From assembly GCF_029664245.1 (NCBI RefSeq), contig NZ_JANAIE010000003.1:310001-374000 (forward strand): a DNA stretch of 64,000 bases. The letters run 5' to 3'. This stretch comes from Profundicola chukchiensis. GTDB lineage: Bacteria; Bacteroidota; Bacteroidia; Flavobacteriales; Weeksellaceae. Below are positions 15,144 through 31,590 of this stretch, piece after piece (positions within the stretch are counted from its first letter, which is position 1; each line of letters starts with the position of its first letter). The notes below the pieces were generated by a model that was not told the origin of the DNA, ran no database searches, and saw only the letters and a list, made by a program, of their open reading frames with translations. The position numbers and the translations under genes were made by a program.

Positions 15144-15151
15144 TATATTTG
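15144..15151 (+). promoter_or_regulatory. pgk -7 promoter element
   Basis: TATATTTG exactly fits the Bacteroidetes -7 consensus TAnnTTTG and ends 18 bases before the pgk ATG. That implies a very short leader. Confidence 0.5.
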
Positions 15152-15169
15152 TAATCTCAAGCGAAAACT

Positions 15170-16363: not shown

Positions 16364-16384
16364 TCAGTTTTGAAAATAAAATAT

Positions 16385-16417
16385 AAAAAAAGTGTCATAT
16401 TTCTATGACACTTTTTT
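16385..16417 (+). terminator. Intrinsic terminator after pgk
   Basis: A stem of AAAAAAGTGTCATA against TATGACACTTTTTT with a short loop, followed by T residues. The hairpin is nearly symmetrical and could also serve the convergent small lipoprotein gene. Confidence 0.85.
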
Positions 16418-16519
16418 GTTTTTGATACTAAATGTTAGAAGTTATAAAAAAGTAAAAAGAGTAAACTTACTTTAAAACCTAAGATTCTAATTACTAAATA
16501 CAATCTACCAACTACTACA

Positions 16520-16768
16520 TTACATACACTCAGCAAAGAAATTTTCAACTTCTTGTTCGCTCATGTTTCTAATAGCTTCTTCGGCTTCTTCCATAGAACT
16601 ATAATTTTCCATAGCCTTTTTTAGGCCGCATTCACAGATTTCCTTTTGATCTTCAGAAAATTGCATACAATCATTCATATACATTTCCTGATCTGCTACA
16701 GACCATTCTTTTGAACAAGAAATTAACCCAAATAATATAAATGAATATATAAAGATTGACTTTTTCAT
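16520..16768 (-). CDS. Small cysteine-containing lipoprotein of unknown function
   Basis: An 82-residue protein. A hydrophobic signal (MKKSIFIYSFILFGLISC) ends in an LISC lipobox, so the mature lipoprotein begins at Cys18. The mature part is acidic and helical with four further cysteines (in NDCMQF, ICECG and AECM) that could form two disulfides. I do not recognise a named family. It converges with pgk and stands alone. Confidence 0.75.
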   Translation of the reverse strand: MKKSIFIYSFILFGLISCSKEWSVADQEMYMNDCMQFSEDQKEICECGLKKAMENYSSMEEAEEAIRNMSEQEVENFFAECM

Positions 16769-16963
16769 ATAGATTTTATTTAAAACAAAACTATGAAAAT
16801 TATAAGATACATAATCAACATGATTTCTGATTTGAAAGATTAAAAAATAATCTTTCCGTTGCCTTATTTATATAGAATCAAGTTTATGGTTATTAATGAT
16901 TCTTTTGCTAAAATATACTTAAAGAATTAACTTGCAGACTCACAAAAAACAAATAATTTAAAA

Positions 16964-18394
16964 ATGAAAAAGCTTTTACTTATGCTTTTATTTCCTGTGC
17001 TATCTTTAGCGCAAGAAAATCAAAAAGTTCCTAACTTTTTTCCACAACAAACTTCTTATCATTCAACTCCAGAAAATCTAGACATGCCTACTACGCAATG
17101 GTCTGATTTGGCAGATGTAAGTTGGTATAATGATACTGATCTTAATTTTGAGATTAGTACTGCCGAAGAATTTGCTGGTTTAGCACAACTGGTAATTGGT
17201 GGAGAAAGTTTTGCAGACAAAACCTTAAACTTAACGGCTAACTTAGATTTAGCGGGTCATTTATGGACGCCTATCGGAACGGGTGTTGACACGCCATTCT
17301 CTGGAACATTTGATGGAAATAATTATACCATTTCTAATTTGAGTATTAATCTACCAGATGATTCGTTCGTAGGTATGTTTGGTCATGTAGTGAGTGGATC
17401 AATTAGAAATATCAATTTAGAAACGGCTGAAGTTTATGGTTTAGATGCAGTAGGTTCTATTGTAGCTAATGTATTCTCTAGTACAGCTTATAACTTACAT
17501 GCCAACAATGTAACTGTAGTTGGTACAGATTTTAATATTGGAGGATTGAGTGGTGCAATTTTAACAGGAAGTACTATGGAAAACTGTTCAGCTACCAACG
17601 TAAATGTTTCTGGTGAAAGCCAAATCGGAGGTTTACTTGGATCTGTGTGGGATAGATCTCACTTAAAAAATAGTTATAGTACAGGTGTAGCAAGCGGTAA
17701 CTATTTAATCGGTGGATTAGTAGGGTTTACAACATTTGCCTTTACACCAGATATCAATTCAGTTTCTTATTGCTATAGTAGAGTAAATGTTACAGGTAAT
17801 TTAGGAAGAGTTGGTGGGTTATATGGAGGTGCTCAAGGTGCTCTTTTAATTGAAAACTCATATGCTACCGGCACAGCTACGGCTAATGAGTTCGCAGGAG
17901 GTTTTATTGGAGCTGCTGGAAACATTCAAGTTATCAACAGTTATTTTGATTATGAAACTTCTGAACATCTAGATGGTATTGGTGGATGGGAAGGTCCAGT
18001 TTTAGAGGTTGGTTTAGAAGCTAGAACTAGTGAATCTATGAAAACCGAAGCATTTGTGGCTGAATTAAATCAAAATGCAGAAGAAGGTGCGATTTGGTTC
18101 ATGGGTGATGAAACAAATGACTTCTACCCTATTTTTAACGAAACTTTATCTGTGGATAATGTGGTAGTTAACAAAGCTTTGGTTCAATTATATCCAAATC
18201 CAGTAGTGAATGAATTACATGTGAAGTTAAATCAGGATATTCAATCTATTGAGCTTTACAATGCCAATGGACAAATGTTGAAAACATTGAAATCAGTTAA
18301 CAAAATTTCTGTTTCAGATTTTCCAAAAGGTGTTTATTTCTTGAAAATTAGAACCAATGAAACAACACAATTCGAAAAGTTCATAAAGAAGTAA
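16964..18394 (+). CDS. Secreted GLUG-repeat protein with T9SS sorting domain
   Basis: A 476-residue secreted protein. The signal peptide MKKLLLMLLFPVLSLAQ is followed by a linker and several GLUG-type repeats between about residues 110 and 330 (GGLSGAIL, IGGLLGSVWD, IGGLVGFTT, VGGLYGGAQ, AGGFIGAAG, each with intervening NSYSTG-like strands), which form a beta-solenoid. The C-terminal 75 residues (LYPNPVVNELHVK to KFIKK) are a type A T9SS sorting domain, so it is probably released or attached to the surface by type IX secretion. GLUG repeats occur in adhesins and surface proteins; an adhesive role is inference. Confidence 0.87.
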   Translation: MKKLLLMLLFPVLSLAQENQKVPNFFPQQTSYHSTPENLDMPTTQWSDLADVSWYNDTDLNFEISTAEEFAGLAQLVIGGESFADKTLNLTANLDLAGHLWTPIGTGVDTPFSGTFDGNNYTISNLSINLPDDSFVGMFGHVVSGSIRNINLETAEVYGLDAVGSIVANVFSSTAYNLHANNVTVVGTDFNIGGLSGAILTGSTMENCSATNVNVSGESQIGGLLGSVWDRSHLKNSYSTGVASGNYLIGGLVGFTTFAFTPDINSVSYCYSRVNVTGNLGRVGGLYGGAQGALLIENSYATGTATANEFAGGFIGAAGNIQVINSYFDYETSEHLDGIGGWEGPVLEVGLEARTSESMKTEAFVAELNQNAEEGAIWFMGDETNDFYPIFNETLSVDNVVVNKALVQLYPNPVVNELHVKLNQDIQSIELYNANGQMLKTLKSVNKISVSDFPKGVYFLKIRTNETTQFEKFIKK

Positions 18395-18424
18395 TCTTCA
18401 TTAGATTTAATTAGAATTAATTAC

Positions 18425-18459
18425 AAAGACCCATTTCTTCATTGAGATGGGTCTTTTTT
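18425..18459 (+). terminator. Intrinsic terminator after the GLUG-repeat gene
   Basis: AAAGACCCAT pairs with ATGGGTCTTT around a 12-base loop and is followed by a T run (18454-18459). Confidence 0.88.
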
Positions 18460-18460
18460 C

Positions 18461-18620
18461 GATGTAGTTCAAAAGTGATTTAATAAACGTTTAAAGTTGT
18501 TTAACCAAAAAAGTTCAACTCGAAACGTCATTACGCACTTGATGCGGAATCTGTCGCATTGAAGGTGGTTTAAAAGTGGCTTTAAAATAGTTCAAAAGTA
18601 GTTTAATGGTAGTTTAAAAA
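18461..18620. repeat. Cassette-1 spacer: GTTTAA-rich repeats with CCGCA palindrome copy
   Basis: Degenerate 11-base units of the type GTTTAAAAGTA/GTTTAATGGTA surround one copy (18521-18560) of a short palindromic element built on ATTMCGCACTTGATGCGGAAT. In this copy the left arm reads ATTACGCA, so the stem has a mismatch. Related blocks precede the other four cassettes. Confidence 0.75.
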
Positions 18621-18788
18621 GGCTTTATTAATACTTTTAAACATATTGTAAATTTATAATTTTGAATTGCTTTAGTTGATGATTCAAGTGAAAATGAGAG
18701 TAGTTGTTAATAACTTTACTTGTTCTTATCAAAATAAATTTGGTTTTAGATTTTTGTTGTATTAATAACAATTTAAAATTTTATTTTT
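18621..18788 (+). promoter_or_regulatory. Conserved cassette leader 1
   Basis: This is the first of five closely similar leaders, each starting near a g-c/tctTTATTAATAC block and ending at the small-peptide ATG. It holds TAATTTTG at 18657-18664 and TAAATTTG at 18735-18742, both exact matches to the Bacteroidetes -7 element. The second is conserved in all five leaders. One ttttaga heptamer follows it, then the invariant AATAACAATTTAAAATTTTA before the start codon. Confidence 0.7.
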
Positions 18789-19034
18789 ATGAAAAATCTT
18801 TTATTTGGAGCAGCAATGCTCATGGGAACATTTGCTTTTGGCAATTATGAATTTATTGAATCTAAATTAATTGACTTAGAAGAAGATTTTATTTTAAAGG
18901 GATGTCCACTTGTTAGAATAGACTATACTTGTTGTTATGAATATGTAGAAATGTGTGGCGAACATCCATCTGGAGAATTACTAATGTTTATGGAAGAAAT
19001 ATATTGTGGTGACGATGCCAGTAATAATAACTAA
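18789..19034 (+). CDS. Small secreted cysteine-rich protein, cassette 1
   Basis: An 81-residue protein. The signal peptide MKNLLFGAAMLMGTFAFG is almost identical, at DNA level too, to those of the other cassettes, while the mature part is unrelated apart from its cysteines. It holds six (KGCPLV, YTCCYEY, EMCGE, IYCGDD), so disulfides or cysteine-based modification are possible. No named family is recognised. It sits under the conserved leader and 37 bases before a GLPGLI gene. Unlike cassettes 2-4, no hairpin lies between the two genes. Confidence 0.72.
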   Translation: MKNLLFGAAMLMGTFAFGNYEFIESKLIDLEEDFILKGCPLVRIDYTCCYEYVEMCGEHPSGELLMFMEEIYCGDDASNNN

Positions 19035-19071
19035 ATAATAATCTACTATCATTCTTTACTAATCTTATAAT

Positions 19072-19857
19072 ATGCAATGTAAAAAGACAGCAATAACATA
19101 CTTATTATTAATAGTTTCATCAATAATGTTTTCACAAACATTTACCTATGAATATACATATAAATTGGATTCTACAGATTTGAATCGTATTAGTCAAGAT
19201 GTGTTAAATTTAGAAATAAATAACTCATATTCTTTATTTTATAGCATAAATAGATTAAAAAGAAATAATTATGCAAAAGCTTTAGAAACCGAAATAGAAA
19301 ATAACACACTTAACTTAAAGAGTGCTCCAAATCCTGGAGTTCATTGGAGTATTAAAAATGACTCTTCTCGGGAATCAATAATGGTATATGAGGATTATTC
19401 TATCTATAAGTATAAATATTCCGATCATATTAATTTGGATTGGAAACTTCAAGATTCTACTAAATTTTATGATCATTTAAAACTTCATAAAGCTACTACC
19501 AGTTTCAGAGGTAGAGATTATATTGCGTGGTATACATTAGAAATTCCTTTGTCCTATGGCCCTTATAAGTTTTATGGCTTGCCTGGTTTGATAGTTGAAA
19601 TTTATGATGAGAATAAAAACCATCATTTCAAAATGGTTGAAACATCAAAAATAAAATTAGATGAAAATTATTTTTCAGAATTCAAATTAATTTCTAAAGA
19701 TGATTTCAAAGAATTTTTTGACAAATATGAGTTAAATCCTATGTCATTAATTCCAGAAACAGAGGGTATTAGAATCCCAGAAAATCAAAAGAAAATTCAT
19801 AAGGAAAGAATGGAAGCTAGAAAAGCTAGAAGAAATAATTTTATAGAGTTAAGGTAA
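19072..19857 (+). CDS. GLPGLI-family secreted protein, cassette 1
   Basis: A 261-residue GLPGLI-family protein (first noted as a paralogous set in Porphyromonas). It has a signal peptide (ITYLLLIVSSIMFSQ) and the family core: KATTSFRGRDYIAWYT (about 141-156), then the ending FYGLPGLIVEIYDENKN (about 168-184). The C-terminus is basic and ends NNFIELR. The family is secreted or periplasmic with no proven function. It follows the small secreted protein of cassette 1 and is probably co-transcribed with it. Confidence 0.85.
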   Translation: MQCKKTAITYLLLIVSSIMFSQTFTYEYTYKLDSTDLNRISQDVLNLEINNSYSLFYSINRLKRNNYAKALETEIENNTLNLKSAPNPGVHWSIKNDSSRESIMVYEDYSIYKYKYSDHINLDWKLQDSTKFYDHLKLHKATTSFRGRDYIAWYTLEIPLSYGPYKFYGLPGLIVEIYDENKNHHFKMVETSKIKLDENYFSEFKLISKDDFKEFFDKYELNPMSLIPETEGIRIPENQKKIHKERMEARKARRNNFIELR

Positions 19858-20000
19858 TTTGTATTTAATGGTTTAATAATAGTTTAAAGTTGTTTAACCA
19901 AAAAAGTTCAATTCGAAGTGTCATTCCGCACTTGATGCGGAATCTAATTTATCAAGTGGCTTAAAAATAGTTTAAAGATGGTTTAATGGTAGTTTAAACA
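19858..20000. repeat. Cassette-2 spacer repeats
   Basis: GTTTAA-type repeats with one palindromic element at 19914-19944 (perfect 8-base arms ATTCCGCA/TGCGGAAT). The arrangement and much of the sequence match the spacer before cassette 1. Confidence 0.75.
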
Positions 20001-20189
20001 GACTTTATTAATACTTTTAATCATATTATAAATTCATAATTTTACATTGCTTTAGTTGATAATTCAAGTGAAAATAAGCAGAATTGTTAATAACTTTTCT
20101 TGTTTTAAAGAAAATAAATTTGGTTTTAGATTTTAGATTTTAGATTTTAGATTTTTGTTTTCATAATAACAATTTAAAATTTTATTTTT
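20001..20189 (+). promoter_or_regulatory. Conserved cassette leader 2 with four ttttaga heptamers
   Basis: It is closely similar to leader 1 along its length. TAAATTTG is at 20115-20122 and is followed by four tandem ttttaga heptamers (20124-20151), then the invariant A/T-rich ribosome-binding stretch up to the ATG. Heptamer number is the main length difference between leaders. Confidence 0.7.
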
Positions 20190-20447
20190 ATGAAAAATCT
20201 TTTATTTGGAGCTTTATGTATGCTCTTGGGGACTTTTGCTTTTGCTAATACTAATGAGGTAAAAGAAATTAATACCATTCAGACTAATCTTAAATTTGAA
20301 ACTGTTCAAGAATATAATGGCTGGTGTGAAATTAGGATTTATCGTGGAAATGAACTTATTTATTATTCGTATGCACCAGCAGAAAGTGAAGCAGCTTGTG
20401 AATTAAGGTACAAATTGAAGTATTTTGAATATGCATATGGAGGTTAA
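20190..20447 (+). CDS. Small secreted WCEI-type protein, cassette 2
   Basis: An 85-residue protein with the shared signal peptide (MKNLLFGALCMLLGTFAFA, cleavage predicted after AFA). The mature part contains NGWCEIRIYRGNEL and a second cysteine in AACELRYK about 28 residues later. It is recognisably related to the cassette-3 protein (same WCEI, SY and AC/R spacing) but not to those of cassettes 1, 4 and 5. One intramolecular disulfide is plausible. The family is not known to me. A strong hairpin lies directly behind it. Confidence 0.72.
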   Translation: MKNLLFGALCMLLGTFAFANTNEVKEINTIQTNLKFETVQEYNGWCEIRIYRGNELIYYSYAPAESEAACELRYKLKYFEYAYGG

Positions 20448-20460
20448 AAAATGTTTTTTT

Positions 20461-20488
20461 AAACATAAGGCTTAAAAGCCTTATGTTT
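20461..20488 (+). terminator. Hairpin between small gene and GLPGLI genes, cassette 2
   Basis: A 28-base near-perfect palindrome with arms AAACATAAGGCTT and AAGCCTTATGTTT. It is not followed by a long T run, so it may act as a 3'-end stabiliser or partial attenuator for the small-gene transcript rather than a full terminator. Confidence 0.7.
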
Positions 20489-20507
20489 AAATCTAAAATT
20501 AATACTT

Positions 20508-21182
20508 ATGAAATTAAAAATTATTCTTTTAAGTTTTGTCTTGTTTTTGGTAAGTAATGAACTACATGCTCAACTAACATTTCATGCTTATTATAAATTC
20601 ACAGAAGTAATACCAAATGCAAATGAACCAAGACAATACAATGCTTCTATTCTAAAAAATAAGGAATATGTACTCTATACGCATAAGGTTGCGCCAAGCC
20701 AGATGGAAAAAGAAAACTTATCAAATTCAAAAAGGTTGGTTGATGATTCTGACTTCGAGTATAAAATATTCATGACCCAAGACAAGGTCCATATACATGA
20801 TTTGCTTCAGGGCAAAGACTATTACTTTGAAGAAGAAGCTCCTGAAATTACCTATGAATTCATAGACGAAACCAAAGAATTTTGGAATAAAACTGCTCAT
20901 AAAGCAACTACACATTTCCGTGGAAGAGATTATGTGATATGGTACGAGAAAAACGATGTGCACATAAGTCCATGGAAATTTCAGGGAATACCTGGAGTTG
21001 TGCTAGAAGCTTATTCAACGGATAATATTTTTCGCTGGAGTTTAGAAAGAATAGATACGGAAATGAAAAAAATAAAATCTCCATTTGCTGAAAATCTAGA
21101 ATTTTTATCTTGTAAGGAATATTCTCGTCTAACAGCAAAAGATAAAAATCAACTAGAAATTAATTTTGAATGCAAAGATTAA
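20508..21182 (+). CDS. GLPGLI-like secreted protein with divergent motif, cassette 2
   Basis: A 224-residue relative of the GLPGLI family with signal peptide MKLKIILLSFVLFLVSNELHAQ. The family core reads KATTHFRGRDYVIWYE (about 133-148). The naming motif has changed to GIPGVVLEAYSTD (about 162-174). The same divergence occurs in the matching gene of cassette 3, so the short form is a distinct subtype. The next GLPGLI gene starts 2 bases after its stop. Function unknown. Confidence 0.8.
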   Translation: MKLKIILLSFVLFLVSNELHAQLTFHAYYKFTEVIPNANEPRQYNASILKNKEYVLYTHKVAPSQMEKENLSNSKRLVDDSDFEYKIFMTQDKVHIHDLLQGKDYYFEEEAPEITYEFIDETKEFWNKTAHKATTHFRGRDYVIWYEKNDVHISPWKFQGIPGVVLEAYSTDNIFRWSLERIDTEMKKIKSPFAENLEFLSCKEYSRLTAKDKNQLEINFECKD

Positions 21183-21184
21183 TT

Positions 21185-22039
21185 ATGAGGAGATTAAGTT
21201 GTATTTTTATTTTCTTACTGTTTTTCACCAATTTGAAAGCACAACAATATGAGGTGATTTATGAGCTTTATATTCAGGCGAGTACAGAGAAAGATAGTTT
21301 GATTACTGAAGAAACAAGTTTAGTGATTTTTCCTGAACAACAAATTTCGTTTTTCTCGAATCTTGGCGAACAAAAGAGAAAAGATTTTTTTAAACAAATT
21401 AGAGAAGAAGCTAAAATTAATCCTGATATCAGTCATGTTGATTATAGTGCAGTTCCTGAATATGTTTTCGCCTACAGTGTTTTAAAGAATTTAAAAACAA
21501 ATGAACATAGCTTTTATGAAGAGGTTTTGGGCGATACATATAATTATGGGTTTGATCTCAACTTAAATTGGAATATTACGGGCGATAAAAAACAAATCCT
21601 AGATTATGCCTGTCAAAAGGCGACTCTGCATTTCGGTGGAAGACAATGGACAGCTTACTTTACGCAAGAAATTCCATTTTCTGATGGACCTTATAAATTT
21701 CATGGATTGCCAGGTTTAATTTTGGAAATTTATTCAGAAGACGGAGATTATTCATTTTCGGCAAAAGGAATTCAGACCTTAAAAACAGAGTTTATAGCGC
21801 CTAAATCCTTAAAAATGCGAAAAGCTAGTTTAGATAAGTACAAAGAAAAATTAGCTGAAAAACCTTCGATTGCCTTTGTAAATAAGATGCAAAGCTCTGG
21901 TTTGACTGGTAGTGTTAGTTATAACGGAAAACCAATAAGTAACAGTCAAGTTGCTAACACCTATGATAAAGAAGTAAAGGAATGGATGAAAAATCATAAT
22001 AATCCTATCGAAAAAGATATGATTTGGTTGGATAAGTGA
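21185..22039 (+). CDS. GLPGLI-family protein, long form, cassette 2
   Basis: I start at the ATG at 21185, which gives the signal peptide MRRLSCIFIFLLFFTNLKAQ; an ATG at 21170 lies inside the preceding gene. The protein has 284 residues. The core is KATLHFGGRQWTAYFTQEIP and the motif is HGLPGLILEIYSEDGD. The last 25 residues are identical to those of the cassette-3 long form, and the DNA identity continues past the stop codon. It is probably translationally coupled to the short form 2 bases upstream. Confidence 0.85.
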   Translation: MRRLSCIFIFLLFFTNLKAQQYEVIYELYIQASTEKDSLITEETSLVIFPEQQISFFSNLGEQKRKDFFKQIREEAKINPDISHVDYSAVPEYVFAYSVLKNLKTNEHSFYEEVLGDTYNYGFDLNLNWNITGDKKQILDYACQKATLHFGGRQWTAYFTQEIPFSDGPYKFHGLPGLILEIYSEDGDYSFSAKGIQTLKTEFIAPKSLKMRKASLDKYKEKLAEKPSIAFVNKMQSSGLTGSVSYNGKPISNSQVANTYDKEVKEWMKNHNNPIEKDMIWLDK

Positions 22040-22291
22040 TTATGAAGCAGCTTATCGGTTGTTTAAAGGTAGTTTAAATAAAATATTGGGCACGAAGCGT
22101 CATTCCGCACTCGATGCGGAATCTAATTTATGAAGTGGTTTAATGGAAGTTTAAAGTAGTTTAAAAGTAGTTCAAAAGTGGTTTAAACGAAAATACTGGG
22201 CCCGAAGCGTCATTCCGCACTGGATGCGGAATCTAGCGCATTGAAGGTGGCTTAAAAATAGTTTAAAGATGGTTTAATGGTAATTTAAACA
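22040..22291. repeat. Cassette-3 spacer repeats with two palindromic elements
   Basis: GTTTAA-type repeats with two copies of the palindromic element, at 22091-22123 and 22201-22233, each with perfect ATTCCGCA/TGCGGAAT arms. The first 40 bases continue the duplication shared with the region after 24464. Confidence 0.8.
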
Positions 22292-22480
22292 GACTTTATT
22301 AATACTTTTAATCATATTATAAATTCATGATTTTGGATTACTTTAGTTGATTATTCAAACAAAAATAAGCAGAATTGTTAATAACTTTTCTTGTTTTAAA
22401 GAAAATAAATTTGGTTTTAGATTTTAGATTTTAGATTTTAGATTTTTGTTGACATAATAACAATTTAAAATTTTATTTTT
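22292..22480 (+). promoter_or_regulatory. Conserved cassette leader 3 with four ttttaga heptamers
   Basis: TAAATTTG is at 22406-22413, followed by four ttttaga heptamers (22415-22442) and the invariant stretch before the ATG. It is nearly identical to leader 2. Confidence 0.7.
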
Positions 22481-22750
22481 ATGAAAAATCTTTTATTTGG
22501 AGCTGTAATGCTCTTGGGAACATTTGCTTTTGCTTCAACTATTGAAACACATGGCGACGATATGAACACGCAAAATTACGAATTTCAATTTATGGAGGAC
22601 ATAGTTGTAGGCGGTTGGTGCGAAATATTTATTTACAACTCGAACGGTGAAGTTGTCGATTATTCATATACTTGGGAAATTTCAGAATATGCTTGTAAAA
22701 AACGAGCAAAGGATATGCTTGATGATTTTGTTATAGCACCCGTAGATTAA
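22481..22750 (+). CDS. Small secreted WCEI-type protein, cassette 3
   Basis: An 89-residue paralogue of the cassette-2 small protein. The shared signal peptide MKNLLFGAVMLLGTFAFA is followed by a mature part with GGWCEIFIYNSNGE, a SYTWE segment and a second cysteine in YACKKRAKD. The spacing of W-C-E-I and the second cysteine matches cassette 2, while other residues differ freely. It is followed by a 16-base-pair hairpin and a short-form then a long-form GLPGLI gene, so cassettes 2 and 3 are duplicates in gene order. Confidence 0.72.
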   Translation: MKNLLFGAVMLLGTFAFASTIETHGDDMNTQNYEFQFMEDIVVGGWCEIFIYNSNGEVVDYSYTWEISEYACKKRAKDMLDDFVIAPVD

Positions 22751-22760
22751 TTGAACTTTA

Positions 22761-22799
22761 AAAGAATTTATCTAAAATATTAATTTAGATAAATTCTTT
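22761..22799 (+). terminator. Hairpin between small gene and GLPGLI genes, cassette 3
   Basis: A perfect 16-base-pair stem (AAAGAATTTATCTAAA with its complement at 22784-22799) and a 7-base loop. The sequence differs completely from the hairpin in cassette 2, but the position is the same: directly after the small gene. Confidence 0.72.
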
Positions 22800-22814
22800 A
22801 TTATTACTATTATT

Positions 22815-23549
22815 ATGTATAAATTATTATATTCTATTTTCTTTGGTTGTTTTTTGTTGACCGTAGGTCTTACACAAGAAGCCATAGTTGCAAATTATAA
22901 ATTCTATGACAAATTACCCATTTTTAATGAACCCAAAATTTATGATGCACAACTCATTGTAATAAATGATGATGAGTCATATTATACCACAATCTTGAAT
23001 ACGACGGATAATTTGAATGCGAATTTTAATGATCAGATTGTTTTTGAAAATCAGGATTTTGTGTATCAACTTTTAAAACAAAATAAAAAATTTTATACAC
23101 ATGATTTATTGCAAAGGAAAAAATACTTTTTTGAGGAAAACATACCAGAAATAGTATATAAGTATATGGATGATACAAAACTATTAAATAATATTATCCT
23201 TCATAAAGCCTTTACTACATTTAGAGGTAGAGAATACATTTTGTGGTTTGAAAAAGGAGATATCAATATAAGCCCTTGGAAGTTTTCTGGAATTAACGGT
23301 ATTGTGCATGAGGCTTACTCCACGGATGGTAAAGCCAGATGGGAATTAGTAGATATAGCACAAACTAAAGAAAAATTTAAAAATCCTTTCCCAAAAGAAG
23401 CATTGTTTTTGCCTTATGAACTTTATCCTGAAAAAGCTTATGCAATACCAGAAGCATTGAAAAGAAAATTAGCTAAGAATCCTAATAATAGGTTAACTGA
23501 ACAAGAAAGAAATCAATTGGAAATTGAATTTGATTTTGAGAAAAAATAG
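22815..23549 (+). CDS. GLPGLI-like secreted protein with divergent motif, cassette 3
   Basis: A 244-residue paralogue of the short form in cassette 2, with signal peptide LLYSIFFGCFLLTVGLTQ. The core is KAFTTFRGREYILWFEKGD and the motif has become GINGIVHEAYSTDG, so the GLP of the family motif is lost. Both short forms share NISPWKF or HISPWKF before this site. The C-terminus is charged. A small hairpin (ACCAATAAATTGGT, 23569-23582) lies between it and the long form. Function unknown. Confidence 0.78.
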   Translation: MYKLLYSIFFGCFLLTVGLTQEAIVANYKFYDKLPIFNEPKIYDAQLIVINDDESYYTTILNTTDNLNANFNDQIVFENQDFVYQLLKQNKKFYTHDLLQRKKYFFEENIPEIVYKYMDDTKLLNNIILHKAFTTFRGREYILWFEKGDINISPWKFSGINGIVHEAYSTDGKARWELVDIAQTKEKFKNPFPKEALFLPYELYPEKAYAIPEALKRKLAKNPNNRLTEQERNQLEIEFDFEKK

Positions 23550-23597
23550 TTATTATAGCAACCTTAAACCAATAAATTGGTCTATTAATAAATTTAA

Positions 23598-24464
23598 ATG
23601 ATAAAATTCATTCTTACAAAATATATTTTTGTTCTAAATACATTGATTCTATCTTCAGTTTTATCTGCGCAGACTTACGAGGTAGTTTATGATCTAAAGT
23701 ATCAACCGAATATTGATGAAGATAGTTTAGTGGTGGAAGAAATGAGTTTGTTATTCAATGTTGCTCAGCAAAAATCTATATTTGAGAATTTAGGTAAACA
23801 GAAAATTAAAGAATTTTATAACAATCTTCGACAGAGTGCACAATTAGGCAATAGTATTCATTATGACAATTCTTTGATGCCGACTTATAATTTTGCCTTT
23901 AGTGTTTCAAAAGATTTTGAAAAACAAAAATATACCTTTTACGAGCCTGTGTTGGGTGAAACCTATACTTATGATTTTAAAGAACCCATTCATTGGGAGG
24001 TTTTAAAATCAACTAAAGAGGTGATGGGTTACCAATGTCAAGAAGCACAACTTAATTTTGGAGGAAGAACATGGCTTGCCTATTTCTCTCATGAAATTCC
24101 ATTTTCTGATGGACCTTATAAATTTTATGGATTACCAGGATTAATACTTGAAATTCAATCCACAGATGGTGATTATTCTTTTGAAGCAACCTCAATTTAT
24201 ACGTTAAATAAAGATATTATTCAACCTGATGCTATTGGGTTCAAAAAGGATAAATTAGATCAATATAAAGAGAGATTAGCAGAAAAACCATCTATTGCGC
24301 TAAAAAATAAATTAGAAAGCAATAACATTTCGGTAAGCGTTAAATTTGACGGTAAAGATGTTAGTGGAAAATCTTTTGAAGACACGTATGATAAAGAAGT
24401 AAAGGAATGGATGAAAAATCATAATAATCCTATCGAAAAAGATATGATTTGGTTGGATAAGTGA
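23598..24464 (+). CDS. GLPGLI-family protein, long form, cassette 3
   Basis: A 288-residue paralogue of the long form in cassette 2. The signal peptide region is IFVLNTLILSSVLSAQ. The core QLNFGGRTWLAYFSHEIPFSDG and the motif YGLPGLILEIQSTDGD are intact. The final 25 residues and about 40 bases beyond the stop are identical or nearly identical to the end of cassette 2, which points to recent duplication or gene conversion. Confidence 0.85.
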   Translation: MIKFILTKYIFVLNTLILSSVLSAQTYEVVYDLKYQPNIDEDSLVVEEMSLLFNVAQQKSIFENLGKQKIKEFYNNLRQSAQLGNSIHYDNSLMPTYNFAFSVSKDFEKQKYTFYEPVLGETYTYDFKEPIHWEVLKSTKEVMGYQCQEAQLNFGGRTWLAYFSHEIPFSDGPYKFYGLPGLILEIQSTDGDYSFEATSIYTLNKDIIQPDAIGFKKDKLDQYKERLAEKPSIALKNKLESNNISVSVKFDGKDVSGKSFEDTYDKEVKEWMKNHNNPIEKDMIWLDK

Positions 24465-24715
24465 TTATGAAGCGGCTTATCGGTTGTTTAAAGGTAGTTT
24501 AAATGTGGTTTAATGGTAGTTTAAAATTGTTTAAATAAAATATTGGGCACGAAGCGTCATTCCGCACTCGATGCGGAATCTAATTTATGAAGTAGCTTAA
24601 AAGTAGTTTAGTTATAGTTAAAATTTGTTTAACCAAAAATGTTCATCTCGAAACGTCATTACGCACTTGATGCGGAAGCTAGCGTATTAGAGTTGTTTTA
24701 AAGGATGTTTAAAAA
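24465..24715. repeat. Cassette-4 spacer repeats with two palindromic elements
   Basis: GTTTAA-type repeats with palindromic elements at 24549-24580 (perfect arms) and 24648-24680 (left arm ATTACGCA, as in the cassette-1 copy). Bases 24465-24503 belong to the duplication shared with 22040-22078. Confidence 0.8.
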
Positions 24716-24890
24716 GTCTTTATTAATACGATCATAAGGCTTATAAATTCATAATTTTGCATTATTTTAGTTGATGATTCAAACGAAAATAGATGTGATT
24801 GTTAATAACTTTTATTGTTTTAATCAAAATAAATTTGGTTTTAGATTTTAGATTTTTGTTGACATAATAACAATTTAAAATTTTATTTTT
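24716..24890 (+). promoter_or_regulatory. Conserved cassette leader 4 with two ttttaga heptamers
   Basis: TAATTTTG lies near 24757-24764 and TAAATTTG at 24830-24837, followed by two ttttaga heptamers (24839-24852) and the invariant stretch before the ATG. Confidence 0.7.
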
Positions 24891-25316
24891 ATGAAAAATT
24901 TATTATTTGGAGTATTAGTATTGCTCATGGGAACTTTTGCATTTGCAAACAGTATGGAAACTATCAATTTAATTAACAAAGAACCTTTAGTTGAAATATA
25001 TTCAACAGGATCCGAAACAATTTTTTATCATGAATCAAAACTGGAAGTTTTTGATAAGGATGTAACTTTTATCGTTGGCTTTGATATCAATGACATGGTT
25101 TCATCATTAAGTATATCGGATGAGCTTTCTAAAGATGAGCTATCCCAAGTAACAAATATCTTACTTACATCTAACTGTCTAACTACATGTACAAGAGCAA
25201 ATGGATGTTCAGATAAAAGCACAAGTGTTGGTAGTTTAATTTGTGTTGGTGAATGCGTAGTTGATTGCACACAAGCATTATTGGAAGAAATGACGGAAGA
25301 TACGAATCCACAATAA
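24891..25316 (+). CDS. Secreted cysteine-rich protein, cassette 4
   Basis: A 141-residue protein, the longest of the set. The shared signal peptide (MKNLLFGVLVLLMGTFAFA) is followed by an acidic middle part of about 75 residues and a C-terminal cysteine cluster: SNCLTTCTRANGCSD, then LICVGECVVDCTQ, six cysteines in about 33 residues. This looks like a propeptide followed by a compact cysteine-rich core. An intrinsic terminator follows, and the next genes encode an ABC ATPase and a membrane protein, so a transport or immunity link is plausible but unproven. Family unknown. Confidence 0.72.
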   Translation: MKNLLFGVLVLLMGTFAFANSMETINLINKEPLVEIYSTGSETIFYHESKLEVFDKDVTFIVGFDINDMVSSLSISDELSKDELSQVTNILLTSNCLTTCTRANGCSDKSTSVGSLICVGECVVDCTQALLEEMTEDTNPQ

Positions 25317-25337
25317 TGTAAAAATTTTAAAACCTAA

Positions 25338-25369
25338 AAGCGTGTCTTTAGATACGCTTAATTTTTTTT
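25338..25369 (+). terminator. Terminator-like hairpin between small gene and ABC genes, cassette 4
   Basis: AAGCGTGTC pairs with GATACGCTT (one G-T pair) around a TTTA loop and is followed by AATTTTTTTT. The T run ends at the ATG of the ABC ATPase. It is the best intrinsic-terminator match among the three cassette hairpins. Confidence 0.8.
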
Positions 25370-25957
25370 ATGGATTCATTAGTAGTTATTAAGAAGTTTG
25401 GATATGAAAGTGCTTTATTTGAAAATTTAGAGTTATCCTTCGATAATAGTAGTAAAATTGGTATTGTAGGGAATAATGGCGTGGGCAAAACCACATTGTT
25501 AAAATTAATAAGCCAGCAAATAACAGCAAGTGGCGTGAGCGTAGTTGCAAATCCTGATATAGGATATTTTGATATTAATTATACATTAAATAAAGAATAT
25601 TCTTTCCATGATAACTGTAAATTATATTCAAGGTATTTACAAAAGGATTTGATAGAAGAATATGTTCAGAAATTTGCATTTAATAAACATAAGAATCTTA
25701 AAATCAATAAACTATCAAAAGGAAATTTAGTTAAAGCTCACTTAATATTTTTACTGTCTCTAGAAAAATCTTTTTACTTTTGGGATGAGCCTTTTAGTAA
25801 TTTAGATGAAAAATCAAAAACTGTTTTTAAACTAATTCTACAGGAAGCAAGTTTTGGTTTTTTATTAATTTCACATGATTTTCAAATGATTACATCATGT
25901 TGTAATAAAATATATGAAATAAAAAATAAAACCCTTATCCCAGTAAATAATTTTTAG
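25370..25957 (+). CDS. ABC transporter ATP-binding protein
   Basis: A 195-residue ABC ATPase, on the short side. Walker A is GIVGNNGVGKTTLL (about 31-44), the signature LSKGNLVKAHL (about 118-128), Walker B YFWDEPFSNLD (about 138-148) and the H-loop LLISHDF (about 165-171). The Q-loop region is weak. It pairs with the membrane protein whose ATG follows its stop directly. The layout (secreted cysteine-rich protein, ATPase, membrane protein) resembles peptide-export or self-protection transporters; this is inference. Confidence 0.88.
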   Translation: MDSLVVIKKFGYESALFENLELSFDNSSKIGIVGNNGVGKTTLLKLISQQITASGVSVVANPDIGYFDINYTLNKEYSFHDNCKLYSRYLQKDLIEEYVQKFAFNKHKNLKINKLSKGNLVKAHLIFLLSLEKSFYFWDEPFSNLDEKSKTVFKLILQEASFGFLLISHDFQMITSCCNKIYEIKNKTLIPVNNF

Positions 25958-26617
25958 ATGACAACAGAGTTCACTTTATTTCTAAAAAGCAAATACAACC
26001 TATTCACTATAATTATAGTGCAAATTTTGATGCTAAGTGTCTATTATAGCTACTTTATGATGATGGAAGTTCCAGAAACTACTAATTTATTTGATTCTGG
26101 TATTGTAATATTTTTTTCATTTCTTTTCTATCTATTGATTTATAGGAAAATATTTATTCAACAACACATAAAATTTATTTCATTAAATATAGACCGATAC
26201 AAGTCTATACTCCTGAAGAAAATAGGGGTTTCCATAATTTATTTTGTTATTAGTTCAATTCTTGTATTGATAGCACTTAGTTTTATTTTTGAAAAACCAT
26301 CTTGGTTGTCTGGTCTATTTCAAATCAAATATATTTTATTTTTTTTGTTATTGAATCTCATGTGTTCCTTAATTTCTTTTGCTATTACCTCTTTTAATAC
26401 ATCAATTTGGATGGTTTTAATTATTTTAAGCTTGGTTTTATTTGAAGATAATATTCGTCTTATGATAGAAAATGCAACGATTACGAATTTATTTTTTAAA
26501 ACTAATTACAAAAATCTTTTTAGCGAAGCTTCTATTTATGCTGTAATAACTACAGTTATCTATATATTAATTCCATTTTTTATTATCTTGAAGAAAAACT
26601 ATAAACATGAAAACTAA
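25958..26617 (+). CDS. Hydrophobic membrane protein, probable ABC permease partner
   Basis: A 219-residue protein with about six predicted membrane helices (first IIIVQILMLSVYYSYF, last YAVITTVIYILIPFFIIL) and no recognisable catalytic domain. It begins directly after the ABC ATPase stop and its end overlaps the next GLPGLI gene by 11 bases, so it is firmly in the operon. Position and topology make it the likely transmembrane half of an ABC-2-like transporter. No sequence family is recognised. Confidence 0.75.
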   Translation: MTTEFTLFLKSKYNLFTIIIVQILMLSVYYSYFMMMEVPETTNLFDSGIVIFFSFLFYLLIYRKIFIQQHIKFISLNIDRYKSILLKKIGVSIIYFVISSILVLIALSFIFEKPSWLSGLFQIKYILFFLLLNLMCSLISFAITSFNTSIWMVLIILSLVLFEDNIRLMIENATITNLFFKTNYKNLFSEASIYAVITTVIYILIPFFIILKKNYKHEN

Positions 26618-27398
26618 AATCACAATATGTATTCTACTATTTGGTGTATTTGTGAATGCCCAAATTCGAGTACAATATGAATTAAATTATATAATGGATT
26701 CTACAACTAACTACGTAGAACAAGAAGTATTTAACCTTGATATAGAACAAAACAAATCCTTATTTTATCCTACAGCTTTGGCGAGCATGGACTCTTTAGT
26801 AAACGCCGATAATTATTTATATAACAATAATGTAGTAGAACCAAAACTTGATTATATGATCGAAAAAAACAATGATGAATTGTTTTTTGACGAAGCAATA
26901 GCTTTAAATATATTTCATATTAAAGAACCAAGAATATTAAAATGGGAAATTATTCCTAATTCCATCGATAGCATCGAACAGTTTAAAGTTCAAAAAGCAG
27001 AAACTCGATTCGGAGGTAGGAAATGGATTGCTTATTATACCAGCGAAATTCCCTATTCAGAGGGTCCTTATAAATTTAAAGGCCTACCAGGTTTAATTCT
27101 AAAAGTGCATGACCAAAATAAAGATTATATATTCGATCTTATTGCAATTAAACAAATTAAAGAAATCTTTGAATTTACCTTCCACGAAAAAATTGGTGTA
27201 AGAAAAGTCGATATGGATTTTTTGGAGTATAAAAAATTTCTCTCTGAAATTGAAACCAACCCAAAAGTTATAGCTTATCTAATGACAGGAAACTATAATG
27301 TAGAACTCCCAACTGAACTTAGCCAACAATTTGTAGAACGATATAAAAAAGAGAAAATAAAAAAAAATAACCCTATTGAGTTAAGTCTCGATGAATAA
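26607..27398 (+). CDS. GLPGLI-family protein, cassette 4
   Basis: A 263-residue GLPGLI protein with signal peptide MKTKITICILLFGVFVNAQ. The core AETRFGGRKWIAYYTSEIPYSEGPYKF is split around residue 130-155 and is followed by KGLPGLILKVHDQNKDY. The C-terminus ends NNPIELSLDE. It overlaps the membrane-protein gene by 11 bases and is followed, after a broken GLPGLI remnant, by the outer-membrane protein gene. Confidence 0.86.
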   Translation: MKTKITICILLFGVFVNAQIRVQYELNYIMDSTTNYVEQEVFNLDIEQNKSLFYPTALASMDSLVNADNYLYNNNVVEPKLDYMIEKNNDELFFDEAIALNIFHIKEPRILKWEIIPNSIDSIEQFKVQKAETRFGGRKWIAYYTSEIPYSEGPYKFKGLPGLILKVHDQNKDYIFDLIAIKQIKEIFEFTFHEKIGVRKVDMDFLEYKKFLSEIETNPKVIAYLMTGNYNVELPTELSQQFVERYKKEKIKKNNPIELSLDE

Positions 27399-27466
27399 AT
27401 AGCAGTTTTTCTTTCCTTTTCTTATTCCTAGTATCGAAATCTAAAAATAGCGATACATTTCAACAA

Positions 27467-27610
27467 ATGAAGACAAACTATAATGCATCAATGATTGAGA
27501 GACTAGAGTAAATGAGAATATATTGGATGATGAAAAAAAAAATCAAAAATTAGAAGAAGACAGAATCAAAATCCATCGAATAATCCCATAGAGTTATTAC
27601 ATATTTAATT
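27467..27610 (+). pseudogene. Frameshifted C-terminal remnant of a GLPGLI gene
   Basis: Between the cassette-4 GLPGLI gene and the outer-membrane protein gene, the + strand reads ENILDDEKKNQKLEED then RIKIHR in one frame. After a one-base shift near 27581 it reads NNPIELLHI and a stop. The NNPIEL ending matches the C-termini of neighbouring GLPGLI proteins. No GLPGLI core remains, so this is a 3' fragment of a lost paralogue. Confidence 0.5.
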
Positions 27611-27616
27611 TTTTAA

Positions 27617-30250
27617 ATGAAAAACCATCTTTGCTTTTTATTCATTGTTCTTTTTTCAGCAGTACCAGCTCAAAGCCTTATTCAAGGAAAGCTTTTAAAT
27701 TCTGAACAACAACCTATTTCTGGCGTAAGTGTTAGCCTATCTCCAGAAGACTCGGATGATATTTTAGCCTATGCCATTTCTGATAAGAATGGAGGTTTTA
27801 GTATAGAAGTTAATTCAGAAATTTCGACCTTAAAAATCAGCATTAGATCCATGGATTATGCCATGGTTTCTGAGGTTATTGAAAATAAAAATCAAACCTT
27901 AAACTTCTATTTAACCGAACAAGCTATCGAACTTAAAGATGTGGTCGTAAAGGCGAGTCCTATTCGACAACGTGGAGATACCTTAAACTACTCTGTAAAC
28001 ACTTTTGCCAAGGAACACGATAGAAGTATTGCCGACGTTATTGCGCGTATGCCGGGAATAGAAATTCAGAGCAATGGACAAATTCTCTATCAAGGCAAAC
28101 CTATCAACAAATACTATATCGACAATCTAGACATGTTAGAAGGTAGGTATAATCTTGCTAACAAGAATCTAGCACATAAGGAAGTGGCAAGTGTTCAGGT
28201 ATATGAAAACCATCAGCCGATCAAAATATTAGACAGTTTGGTTTATTCAGATCGAGCGGCTTTGAATATTCAACTTAAAAATAGTTTTACTTTTACAGGA
28301 CAAGCAGAACTAGGTTTGGGCGCTTCTCCTCTACTTTGGGATGCAAATATTACACCTATGCTATTTGCAAGAAATAAGCAGATGCTCACCACCTACCAAA
28401 CCAATAATACAGGAAATAATGTAGCAGAACAGTTTACTAATTTTAGCTTATCTTCTTTGTTAAATCCAGTGCGAATCAATTTAGAAAAAAAAGATTGGGT
28501 TGGTATTCAAAGTTTGTCAACACCCAATTTTCCAGACAAACGTTGGTTAGATAATAATATCCATGCAACTTCTACCAATTTCCTATATAAATTGAAGAAG
28601 GATTATGAAGTAAAATTTAATATTTCTTATCTCAATGATTATCAAAAATTAAAAGGGGCAACAACCACACGATTTTATACTGCCAACGATACCATTCAAC
28701 TCAACGAAACTCAATTCAACCAATTGTATTTTAATTCGTTAGATGCCAATCTTATTCTACATAAAAATACCAAAAAGAATTATTTAAAAAATACCTTAGA
28801 ATTGCAAGGATTTTGGGATGGAGAGCGTGGCGGCATCTTAAATAATAACGAAAATATCGGTCAGCAAGTAGAAAATCATTACTTTAAACTAGCTAACACC
28901 TTAACCAGCATTATTCCTATAGGAAAACAGCTGATGAACCTTAATTCGTATGTAGGTATTGACAAAACGCCTCAGAATTTGCGCATTGATCCAGGACAGT
29001 TTATTAATTTACTCAACCAAAATATGACGTATGATCTAACTACCCAAAATGTAGCACATCAACAATTTGTCACCACCAACTCACTTGGATTTAATAAAGG
29101 CATAAAACATTTTACTTTTTCACCCAGCATTGGTTTTCAGTTGATGAAACAAAGCTTGAATTCTTCTATATTTGTGGATGAAACCGAACTTACAGAATCT
29201 GTATTTAATAACGATTTAGATTGGACACAGACCAAAGCTTTTGCGCAACTCCTTACAGAATATAAAAAGAAAAAATGGCGTTTGAGTTTAATGACACCTG
29301 TTATTTACTCGAACTATAACATATCAGATGATCGCAATGAACTAGGTCAAAACATTAATCAACTAAGCTTTCAGCCAAGCTTTAATGTTTATTATGAACC
29401 AAGCGCTTTCTGGAAATTTAATATCGGAAGCAATTACAGCGAAAGTTTAGGCGATATTCACCAATTGCATTATGCTTATTTGATGAATAATTATAGAAAT
29501 ATTCAAAAAATTTCAGCACCTCTTCCAGAAAGTCAAATCATGAGTTATAGAGTGGGTATGGACTATAAAAACCCGATTAAATCCTTATTTTGGAATATAC
29601 AATACAGTCATTCCAATTTAAATAACAATCTATTGTATGCTACCCAAATTCAAGATAATGGTGCAACAGAAATAACTGCTATACAAGAAGATAATAAACA
29701 ATTAAGCCATCAAGTTTCTTCTCGCATTAGTAAATATTTTGGTAGATTAGGTGCCAACCTAAGCTTAAAAGGAAGTTTAGGTTATAATTTCTCTGAACAA
29801 GTTATCAATCAAATTCTAACTGATGTTAAATCTCAAAACATGGGATTCAACGCCAAAATAGAAAAGGATATTTCGGAAGCATTAAATGTAGAAATCAACT
29901 CGAATTGGACATTTTTTAAGAATAGCTTACAAAATCAATCCAATGCGTGGATTACTCGACAAGAACATCAATTTAAATTAAATGCGTATCCAAAAGAAAA
30001 TCAATTCGTTGGACTGACCACAGAATGGTCTAGAAACGATGTTTTAAAGTCAAATAAGGATTATTTTTTTGCTGACTTACTATATCGCTACACTTGGAAA
30101 AAAGCGAAGTTGGATTTTGAACTTGAGTGGAACAACATCTTCAACAGCAAAGATTATAGTATTTTGAGTATAGACACTTACTCGTATGTAGAAACCAATT
30201 TTAGATTAAGACCCTCGCAGGTTTTGTTGAAGGTGAGATTTTCGCTATAA
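27617..30250 (+). CDS. TonB-receptor-like outer-membrane beta-barrel with carboxypeptidase-like regulatory domain
   Basis: An 877-residue outer-membrane protein. A signal peptide (HLCFLFIVLFSAVPAQS) is followed by a CarboxypepD_reg-like domain (about 22-110, from IQGKLLNSEQQPISGVSVSL), a plug-like region (SIADVIARMPGIEI to NHQPIKIL, about 138-205) and a long barrel ending in a C-terminal phenylalanine-containing strand (VLLKVRFSL). No clear TonB box is visible. Proteins of this type are regular neighbours of GLPGLI genes in Bacteroidetes, so the two probably work together at the outer membrane. The substrate is unknown. Confidence 0.83.
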   Translation: MKNHLCFLFIVLFSAVPAQSLIQGKLLNSEQQPISGVSVSLSPEDSDDILAYAISDKNGGFSIEVNSEISTLKISIRSMDYAMVSEVIENKNQTLNFYLTEQAIELKDVVVKASPIRQRGDTLNYSVNTFAKEHDRSIADVIARMPGIEIQSNGQILYQGKPINKYYIDNLDMLEGRYNLANKNLAHKEVASVQVYENHQPIKILDSLVYSDRAALNIQLKNSFTFTGQAELGLGASPLLWDANITPMLFARNKQMLTTYQTNNTGNNVAEQFTNFSLSSLLNPVRINLEKKDWVGIQSLSTPNFPDKRWLDNNIHATSTNFLYKLKKDYEVKFNISYLNDYQKLKGATTTRFYTANDTIQLNETQFNQLYFNSLDANLILHKNTKKNYLKNTLELQGFWDGERGGILNNNENIGQQVENHYFKLANTLTSIIPIGKQLMNLNSYVGIDKTPQNLRIDPGQFINLLNQNMTYDLTTQNVAHQQFVTTNSLGFNKGIKHFTFSPSIGFQLMKQSLNSSIFVDETELTESVFNNDLDWTQTKAFAQLLTEYKKKKWRLSLMTPVIYSNYNISDDRNELGQNINQLSFQPSFNVYYEPSAFWKFNIGSNYSESLGDIHQLHYAYLMNNYRNIQKISAPLPESQIMSYRVGMDYKNPIKSLFWNIQYSHSNLNNNLLYATQIQDNGATEITAIQEDNKQLSHQVSSRISKYFGRLGANLSLKGSLGYNFSEQVINQILTDVKSQNMGFNAKIEKDISEALNVEINSNWTFFKNSLQNQSNAWITRQEHQFKLNAYPKENQFVGLTTEWSRNDVLKSNKDYFFADLLYRYTWKKAKLDFELEWNNIFNSKDYSILSIDTYSYVETNFRLRPSQVLLKVRFSL

Positions 30251-30383
30251 AGTAGGTTAATGGGGTTTAATGGTGGTTTAATAGTTGCTTAATGTAGTTT
30301 AACCAAAAAAGTTCATCTCGAAGCGTCATTCCGCACTTGATGCGGAATCTAATTTATGAAGTGGTTTAAAAGTAGTTTAAAAA
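30251..30383. repeat. Cassette-5 spacer repeats
   Basis: GTTTAA-type repeats with one palindromic element at 30318-30350 (perfect arms). This is the last copy in the window. Confidence 0.75.
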
Positions 30384-30558
30384 GGCTTTATTAATACGAT
30401 TAAGCATATTATAAATTCATAATTTTATATTGTTTTAGTTGATGATTCAAGTGAAAATGAGAGTAGTTTTTAATAGCTTTACTTGTTTTTAACAAAATAA
30501 ATTTGGTTTTAGATTTTAGATTTTTGTTGTATTAATAACAATTTAAAATTTTATTTTT
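30384..30558 (+). promoter_or_regulatory. Conserved cassette leader 5 with two ttttaga heptamers
   Basis: TAAATTTG is at 30498-30505, followed by two ttttaga heptamers (30507-30520) and the invariant stretch. It ends at ATC in place of the usual ATG. Confidence 0.68.
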
Positions 30559-30696
30559 ATCAAAAATCTTTTATTTGGAGCTTTGGTATTGCTCACGGGG
30601 ACTTTTGCTTTTGCAATTAATGATTCTGAAGATTATATCTTTCCAGAAGATCCTATTGAAATTTATAATCTGAATGAGAAAATAATTTTACCTTGA
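30559..30696 (+). pseudogene. Fifth small secreted-protein gene with ATG changed to ATC
   Basis: The reading frame is open for 45 codons and encodes the shared signal (KNLLFGALVLLTGTFAFA) followed by a short acidic tail ending KIILP, with no cysteine. The first codon is ATC (30559-30561) where the other four cassettes have ATG in the same context. The frame stops at 30694-30696, and the TTG start of the next gene overlaps it by 4 bases (TTGA). Either the gene is dead, or it is translated weakly from the non-standard codon and coupled to the GLPGLI gene. The short cysteine-less tail favours decay. Confidence 0.65.
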
Positions 30697-31370: not shown

Positions 31371-31378
31371 AAAACATT

Positions 31379-31570: not shown

Positions 31571-31590
31571 TCTTCAGAATAATTCATGAT

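Follow-up and report, generated by a model that had tools for sequence, protein, structure and literature searches.

The window considered here is a stretch of 64,000 nt from Profundicola chukchiensis (Flavobacteriales; Weeksellaceae), positions 310,001 to 374,000 of the forward strand of contig NZ_JANAIE010000003.1 (RefSeq assembly GCF_029664245.1), and positions below are counted from its first nucleotide. Its plus strand carries five cassettes in which a gene for a small, apparently secreted protein is followed by a partner gene, typically of the GLPGLI family (TIGR01200 / PF09697). The subject of this analysis is the short gap between these two genes, in which a strong RNA hairpin is found in cassettes 2, 3 and 4 (Table 1) and in corresponding gaps of other flavobacteria.

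Hairpins behind the small genes

The plus strand of every intergenic gap was folded as RNA. Folded alone, the gaps of cassettes 2 (20448-20507; -18.3 kcal/mol, z -6.4), 3 (22751-22814; -14.9 kcal/mol, z -6.1) and 4 (25317-25369; -11.7 kcal/mol, z -3.7) each formed a single hairpin, and none of 200 dinucleotide shuffles folded as stably in any of the three cases. These results confirm the original prediction, made from the sequence alone, that strong hairpins stand behind the small genes of these cassettes. The span 22761-22799 was predicted exactly, 20461-20488 proved to be the core of a stem-loop reaching from 20458 to 20491, and 25338-25369 consists of a stem-loop (25338-25359) and a following run of eight T residues (T8, 25362-25369). 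With this T8, the cassette 4 hairpin is the most terminator-like of the three and stands at the top of the list of terminator-like sites. The gap of cassette 1 forms no hairpin and is a counter-example, while cassette 5 has no gap and hence no hairpin. Three of the four gaps of cassettes 1-4 thus carry a hairpin, compared with 7 of 51 control same-strand gaps of 40-90 nt (p = 0.009).

All five small genes are preceded by a repeat block of about 260 bp (copies at 18576, 19956, 22247, 24671 and 30339), which covers the upstream region, the 5' untranslated region (5'UTR) and the first signal-peptide codons. The repeat stops before the variable part of the genes and before the hairpins, which were therefore not carried along by it. 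A search of the source genome (G000) and two relatives of the same genus (G001 and G002) with the gaps of cassettes 2 and 3, the cassette 4 gap not being queried, revealed no other good copy; beyond the gaps themselves and their own complement, the best match had an E value of 5e-4 over 28 bases. Consequently, these two hairpins are not dispersed repeats.

Recurrence across flavobacteria

Recurrence was assessed for every distinct gap of 30-130 nt in a set of sampled loci, which comprised the best-ranked places and chosen stretches of genomes. Genes were called, GLPGLI members were recognized by a profile built from 116 seeds, and a hairpin was counted if the gap had a z-score of -2.5 or lower and its best single hairpin an energy of -7 kcal/mol or lower. 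Between a small secreted gene and a GLPGLI gene, 51 of 69 gaps (48 genomes, 15 genus labels) contained a hairpin, in comparison to 23 of 108 other same-strand gaps (Fisher's exact test, p = 4e-12), 1 of 24 gaps between another gene and a GLPGLI gene and 0 of 17 divergent gaps. In convergent gaps, where terminators are expected, the count was 36 of 55. When only gaps of 40-90 nt were considered, hairpins were present in 47 of 58 gaps of the small secreted gene-GLPGLI class, 7 of 51 same-strand gaps, 0 of 18 gaps between another gene and a GLPGLI gene and 27 of 40 convergent gaps. Small genes without an evident leader, among them leader genes lacking a start codon as well as some gene ends that are unrelated, were treated as a separate class and showed a hairpin before the GLPGLI gene in 8 of 15 cases. 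Where a small secreted gene is followed by a gene outside the GLPGLI family (class D, cassette 4 included), 6 of 15 gaps contained one. Junctions between two GLPGLI genes (20 distinct) overlap or lie within 12 nt in nine cases, and those with gaps of 13-150 nt hold no such hairpin, the strongest fold among the 10 listed being -4.2 kcal/mol.

At least one hairpin was identified in 13 of the 15 genus labels. The 69 gaps fall into 57 BLAST clusters, of which 42 include a hairpin, indicating that the structure recurs and the sequence does not; the claim that hairpins at this place are unrelated in sequence therefore holds beyond the window. The accompanying claim of a conserved position is correct in that the hairpin recurs at the same place, but this is partly automatic since a hairpin occupies much of a gap of about 60 nt.

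These counts were reached in several steps. The first one relied on a crude class definition, which overlooked many true members and took in some gene fragments. After the GLPGLI profile had been built, more loci added and the threshold switched from stem length to hairpin energy, 51 of 74 gaps passed; the addition of 20 more loci, the requirement of a hydrophobic N-terminus and the transfer of start-less genes to a separate class resulted in 51 of 69. No gap was dropped for lack of a hairpin, and a few doubtful gaps (L054, L070 twice, L209) were retained among the 69. In a preliminary look at 31 members, 20 had a z-score of -2.5 or lower, and one more, whose fold ran into the next gene, was omitted.

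Profiles of the small proteins detected further members in 14 and 12 of 296 genomes, within the same family of genomes. Two wider profiles (A3 and A4), with matches in 62 and 179 of 320 genomes, also picked up many weak matches to mere signal peptides, for example to a family that has no GLPGLI gene downstream; these matches were not counted. Among named genomes, relatives occur in Amniculibacterium aquaticum, two Chryseobacterium metagenome-assembled genomes (MAGs), Halpernia humi (Weeksellaceae), a “Bacteroidetes bacterium” MAG and three species of Flavobacterium (Flavobacteriaceae). These eight loci were returned by a scan of named genomes with alignment A8, five of them identical in proteins and gaps to loci already sampled and three of them new Flavobacterium loci, each with a hairpin, two of these hairpins being nearly identical. 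Locus L273, one of the eight, has no hairpin in its 30-nt gap. A single GLPGLI protein used as query against the named genomes gave no match. GLPGLI matches were found in 38 of 59 genomes, with 1 to 28 per genome.

Covariation of the stem

Nine orthologous gaps of one genus label align well and share a 16-bp stem, in which 94.4% of 144 cells are paired. Slid versions of the stem are paired to 54-61%, a control that is biased toward the stem as the structure was derived from these same sequences. Four stem pairs are changed on both sides, amounting to 12 cells in total, a number reached by 0 of 500 shuffles. RNAalifold likewise predicted this stem, with its inner 13 pairs. Covariation in relatives had been proposed as a check of the hairpins, and in this ortholog group it did reveal compensatory changes, which support the stem on the basis of few events. 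Together with the recurrence across genus labels, it also supports the earlier suggestion that selection seems to maintain the structure.

Probable leaky termination

The hairpins are probably internal, leaky intrinsic (Rho-independent) terminators that lower transcription of the partner genes. As expected of an intrinsic terminator, a stable stem-loop stands directly behind the gene. The 8 nt following the last G-C pair contain on average 4.78 T residues in the 51 hairpins, whereas 3.44 are expected from the rest of the gap. This tail is less rich in T than that of 59 hairpins from convergent and other same-strand gaps (5.37, p = 0.013), and its longest T run is shorter (3.90 vs. 4.63, p = 0.012). 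Hairpin end and partner start codon are separated by a median of 15 nt, significantly less (p = 0.004) than the 41 nt determined for the other same-strand gaps (23 hairpins), so that a promoter would hardly fit in between; one may, however, lie inside the small gene.

In this model, transcription would start in the block that precedes the small gene. Most polymerases would be halted by the stem-loop, the tail of which is moderately U-rich, yielding a stable mRNA for the small protein, while a minority would read through into the partner genes, i.e., GLPGLI genes or, in cassette 4, the gene of the ATP-binding cassette (ABC) ATPase. The small secreted protein would thereby be produced in excess over its partner, as suggested by analogy with ABC-importer operons of Clostridia, and the GLPGLI partner, whose predicted fold weakly matches that of LolA, would serve as a binder or carrier.

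In these operons of cellulolytic Clostridia, stem-loops behind the genes of substrate-binding proteins are leaky terminators for which partial termination was measured; their frequency in long gaps that follow 5' genes is 87.3%, and their U content is below that of canonical terminators (PMC9045158). This arrangement resembles the present one in several respects: a single stem-loop of non-conserved sequence lies right behind the 5' gene, the U content is lowered, the frequency is comparable (51 of 69 here), and an excess of the upstream protein is required there and predicted here. The present case differs in that it concerns Bacteroidota and a pair of a small secreted protein and a GLPGLI protein, and in that termination is predicted rather than measured.

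Several observations weigh against this interpretation. The hairpin test was failed by 18 of the 69 gaps, although in about six of these a hairpin can be made out by eye whose z-score falls short of the threshold. In the genus of the window, only 4 of 11 gaps pass, with clear misses in cassette 1, in a cassette at 162 kb and in a cassette of G002; the cassette at 401 kb, counted in the leaderless class, is a further miss, and three G001 genes without an ATG, which belong to that same class, all have a hairpin. The first, cruder count gave 7 of 20 for gaps between small and GLPGLI genes and 14 of 84 for controls. When convergent gaps alone are used for comparison, the T counts are 4.78 and 5.25 (p = 0.07), and the hairpins of cassettes 2 and 3 are followed by only 3 and 4 T within 8 nt past the stem. 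The difference in spacing is not significant against the six class D hairpins (p = 0.16). TAnnTTTG, the -7 promoter motif of Bacteroidota, was found upstream of 22 of the 69 small genes, compared with a shuffling expectation of about 15, which is weak evidence of a promoter. As for covariation, 44 of 500 shuffles reach four doubly changed pairs and 129 of 500 reach the number of pair types. Finally, the tests do not distinguish termination from protection of an mRNA 3' end.

Such protection is the basis of the main alternative model, in which the whole operon is transcribed, an RNase cuts at or behind the hairpin, the hairpin shields the 3' end of the small-gene mRNA and the partner mRNA decays. 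It predicts the same mRNA ratio, i.e., an excess of the small-gene mRNA, and would account for the strong stems with poor T runs in cassettes 2 and 3 and for a U-tract that is weaker overall than at ordinary gene ends. In the relevant passages of PMC9045158, stem stability adds to the level of the upstream mRNA, and such processing is cited for the cip-cel operon. The U-tracts nevertheless exceed the value expected from composition, and hairpins occur at about the rate of convergent gene ends, as terminators would give. Of the two mechanisms, processing is the less likely one.

That the hairpins are full terminators, with the small gene as its own transcript and the partner gene under its own promoter, is improbable. 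The T8 of cassette 4 and the resemblance in hairpin frequency to gene ends would agree with it, but only about 15 nt separate hairpin and partner start codon, and the T8 of cassette 4 even touches the ATG. Moreover, TAnnTTTG occurs within 200 nt before only 6 of 69 GLPGLI genes (a raw count, given without a shuffled expectation), and the order of small gene, hairpin and partner is kept across genera. Quite improbable is a translational effect, by which the hairpin would block initiation at the partner gene or favor re-initiation there and leave the mRNA level unaffected: the proximity of the hairpin to the start codon would suit it, but neither the U-rich tail nor the terminator-like rate is predicted by it. 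Chance palindromes or dispersed elements without function, akin to repetitive extragenic palindromes (REPs), can hardly be the explanation, since the REP-like palindromic repeats of the region lie before and not behind the small genes, the cassette 2 and cassette 3 hairpins are no copies of these repeats and have no other good copy in G000, G001 and G002, and both recurrence and covariation argue against it. Nor did Rfam yield a known structured RNA, with no match at E values up to 1 across positions 15000-33000.

Small proteins and their GLPGLI partners

For 12 members of the small-protein family, no family above cut-off was identified; four of them were compared with Pfam and NCBIfam and eight relatives with NCBIfam only. 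The aligned proteins exhibit a K-rich start, a hydrophobic run and a GTFAFA/S- or GLMSA-like end, and their N-termini, read by eye, look like Sec signal peptides. Two cysteines are invariant in the alignment. A structural model of the cassette 3 protein, based on 15 aligned sequences, has a mean predicted local distance difference test (pLDDT) score of 71.6 and is confident only in the mature part, where a beta-hairpin is followed by a helix (residues 41-80, block-mean pLDDT 83 to 94). Foldseek revealed no significant match for this model.

The genes downstream of the small genes were assigned to the GLPGLI family above the curated cut-off of TIGR01200. The family is fold-related to the N-terminal domain of PNGase F-II. 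A model of the first GLPGLI protein of cassette 3 (22815-23549; mean pLDDT 88) matched PNGase F-II (E 6e-6) and, more weakly, the half-barrels of LolA, LolB and RseB (E about 1e-4 to 1e-3), all matches having a TM-score below 0.5 by query length; by sequence, the GLPGLI profile reached PNGF-II with an E value of 2.6e-5. These matches suggest that the partner may be a periplasmic binder or carrier. No role was found in the few open papers that name the family.

In operons for lantibiotics and bacteriocins, partial terminators separate the precursor gene from modification genes, and the present cassettes resemble these operons in having a hairpin behind the gene of a small secreted product, with partner genes downstream. 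In contrast to such operons, no modification enzyme was recognized among the frames of 18789-32568, the only part of the genome searched for one, and the small proteins appear to carry a Sec-type signal peptide rather than a leader that is processed as in ribosomally synthesized and post-translationally modified peptides (RiPPs). Family searches in this region, which also holds a frame of 63 aa, returned GLPGLI, the ABC ATPase, a carboxypeptidase-regulatory-like domain or nothing, the hydrophobic 219-aa protein of cassette 4 being among those left unassigned, and a RiPP-type leader (e.g., double-glycine) was not seen by eye in the aligned small proteins. The original prediction had proposed that, as in RiPP and bacteriocin operons, the hairpin raises the mRNA of the small gene over that of the downstream genes. 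The features of the hairpins fit a leaky terminator with this effect, whereas the RiPP or bacteriocin setting is not supported, as no RiPP maturase was recognized beside the genes and the leaders look Sec-type. It is conceivable that the small gene encodes an antibacterial protein that is secreted and has a partner.

Neighboring genes, repeats and related cassettes

The genes and other features of the region are listed in Table 1.

Table 1. Features of the five cassettes and their surroundings (window positions).
Feature	Position	Strand	Remarks
Small secreted gene, cassette 1	18789-19034	+	81 aa; no Pfam or NCBIfam family
Gap, cassette 1	19035-19071	+	37 nt; 0 kcal/mol, no hairpin
GLPGLI partner, cassette 1	19072-19857	+	TIGR01200 E 2e-42
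Repeat block of about 260 bp, reference copy	19956-20216	+	Direct-repeat families D1 and D5
Small secreted gene, cassette 2	20190-20447	+	85 aa; WC...C type
Hairpin, cassette 2	20458-20491	+	15-bp stem, 4-nt loop; in a gap of 60 nt from small gene to GLPGLI gene
First GLPGLI partner, cassette 2	20508-21182	+	TIGR01200 E 2e-21
Second GLPGLI partner, cassette 2	21170-22039	+	TIGR01200 E 3e-51; 13-nt overlap with first
Small secreted gene, cassette 3	22481-22750	+	89 aa; WC...C type; mature part modeled as beta-hairpin and helix
Hairpin, cassette 3	22761-22799	+	16-bp stem, 7-nt loop; 64-nt gap
First GLPGLI partner, cassette 3	22815-23549	+	TIGR01200 E 5e-17; predicted LolA/LolB-like half-barrel
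Second GLPGLI partner, cassette 3	23598-24464	+	Preceding 48-nt gap without strong hairpin (-4.2 kcal/mol)
Small secreted gene, cassette 4	24891-25316	+	141 aa
Hairpin, cassette 4	25338-25359	+	9-bp stem; followed by T8, which abuts the ATG of the ABC ATPase gene
ABC-type ATPase, cassette 4	25370-25957	+	PF00005 E 8e-15; starts right after T8
Hydrophobic protein gene, cassette 4	25958-26617	+	219 aa; no family match
GLPGLI gene ending cassette 4	26607-27398	+	TIGR01200 E 4e-40 at G000:C43:336610-337176
Large outer-membrane-type protein	27617-30250		Carboxypeptidase-regulatory-like domain
Small-gene frame, cassette 5	30559-30696	+	ATC start, not ATG; stop overlaps TTG start of next GLPGLI frame

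In cassette 4, the genes of the ABC ATPase and of the hydrophobic 219-aa protein (25370-26617) occupy the place taken by GLPGLI genes in the other cassettes. The best NCBIfam matches of the ATPase are ABC-F-like and far under the cut-off. Judging from its position and hydrophobicity, the 219-aa protein is perhaps the permease of this ATPase.

Cassettes 2 and 3 each have a second GLPGLI gene, and the ends of these two genes are shared: 21957-22079 and 24382-24504 are 98% identical over 123 bases, comprising the last 83 bases of the genes and 40 bases past the stop codon. As this identity is above that of the rest of the genes, it suggests recent gene conversion or duplication between the cassettes. 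Within the 5'UTR block, the copy number of the 7-base unit ATTTTAG, counted by eye, ranges from about one to four depending on the cassette (around 18750, 20130-20155, 22415-22445, 24840 and 30515). One or two of the REP-like palindromic repeats (GCGTCATTCCGCACTTGATGCGGAATCT and variants) precede each small gene, at about 18527, 19923, 22102, 22207, 24559, 24650 and 30328; four of these positions were computed and the others read by eye.

Small secreted genes that have GLPGLI partners form another cluster on the opposite strand of the same contig (G000:C43:157000-163500, locus L016). One of its gaps (L016, 6648-6697) forms a 12-bp hairpin of -18.6 kcal/mol, and another (9959-10016) forms none.

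Several leader genes of the genus do not have an ATG at the conserved start. This position is occupied by ATC in cassette 5 (30559-30561), by AAG in the leader gene at G000:C43:401k (L015, 1261-1263) and by ATA in three G001 genes (L074, 4207-4209 and 5463-5465; L075, 3192-3194), and in a fourth G001 frame (L078, near 2270-2290) an ATG is present only out of frame, within an A run. The frames and their partners look intact, and these genes may represent silent cassettes or unusual starts. Beyond the genus, most leaders examined by eye have an ATG, L139 being an exception.

Implications

The hairpin behind the small genes is a true, recurrent feature. Internal leaky terminators are known as a mechanism, the gene pair that they would separate here is uncharacterized, and no such case was found for this phylum in the literature searches made. 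The GLPGLI passages of PMC9603813 do not mention the arrangement of small gene, hairpin and GLPGLI gene, and no description of it showed in listings of the literature, mostly outside subscription journals, on GLPGLI proteins, flavobacterial or Bacteroidetes terminators, bacteriocin operons and small secreted proteins of Chryseobacterium.

A tentative and more far-reaching picture, which is possible but not probable, is that of an undescribed, widespread system of secreted peptides in flavobacteria, composed of fast-changing mini-proteins with two cysteines (predicted beta-hairpin and helix) and GLPGLI partners of LolA fold. A leaky terminator would determine the relative dose of the two; at almost every locus it would have been lost and have evolved anew, its function but never its sequence being inherited. 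In the genus of the window, promoter and signal peptide would form an exchangeable block, and the loss of the start codon in several cassettes would allow both silent and expressed ones.

The 42 sequence clusters with a hairpin amount to a natural set of about forty candidate leaky terminators that evolved independently within Bacteroidota. A hairpin between a small secreted gene and its GLPGLI partner marks which gene pairs belong together. A requirement for an excess of the small protein is also predicted from it, and testing this prediction would open a way to the function of the GLPGLI family.

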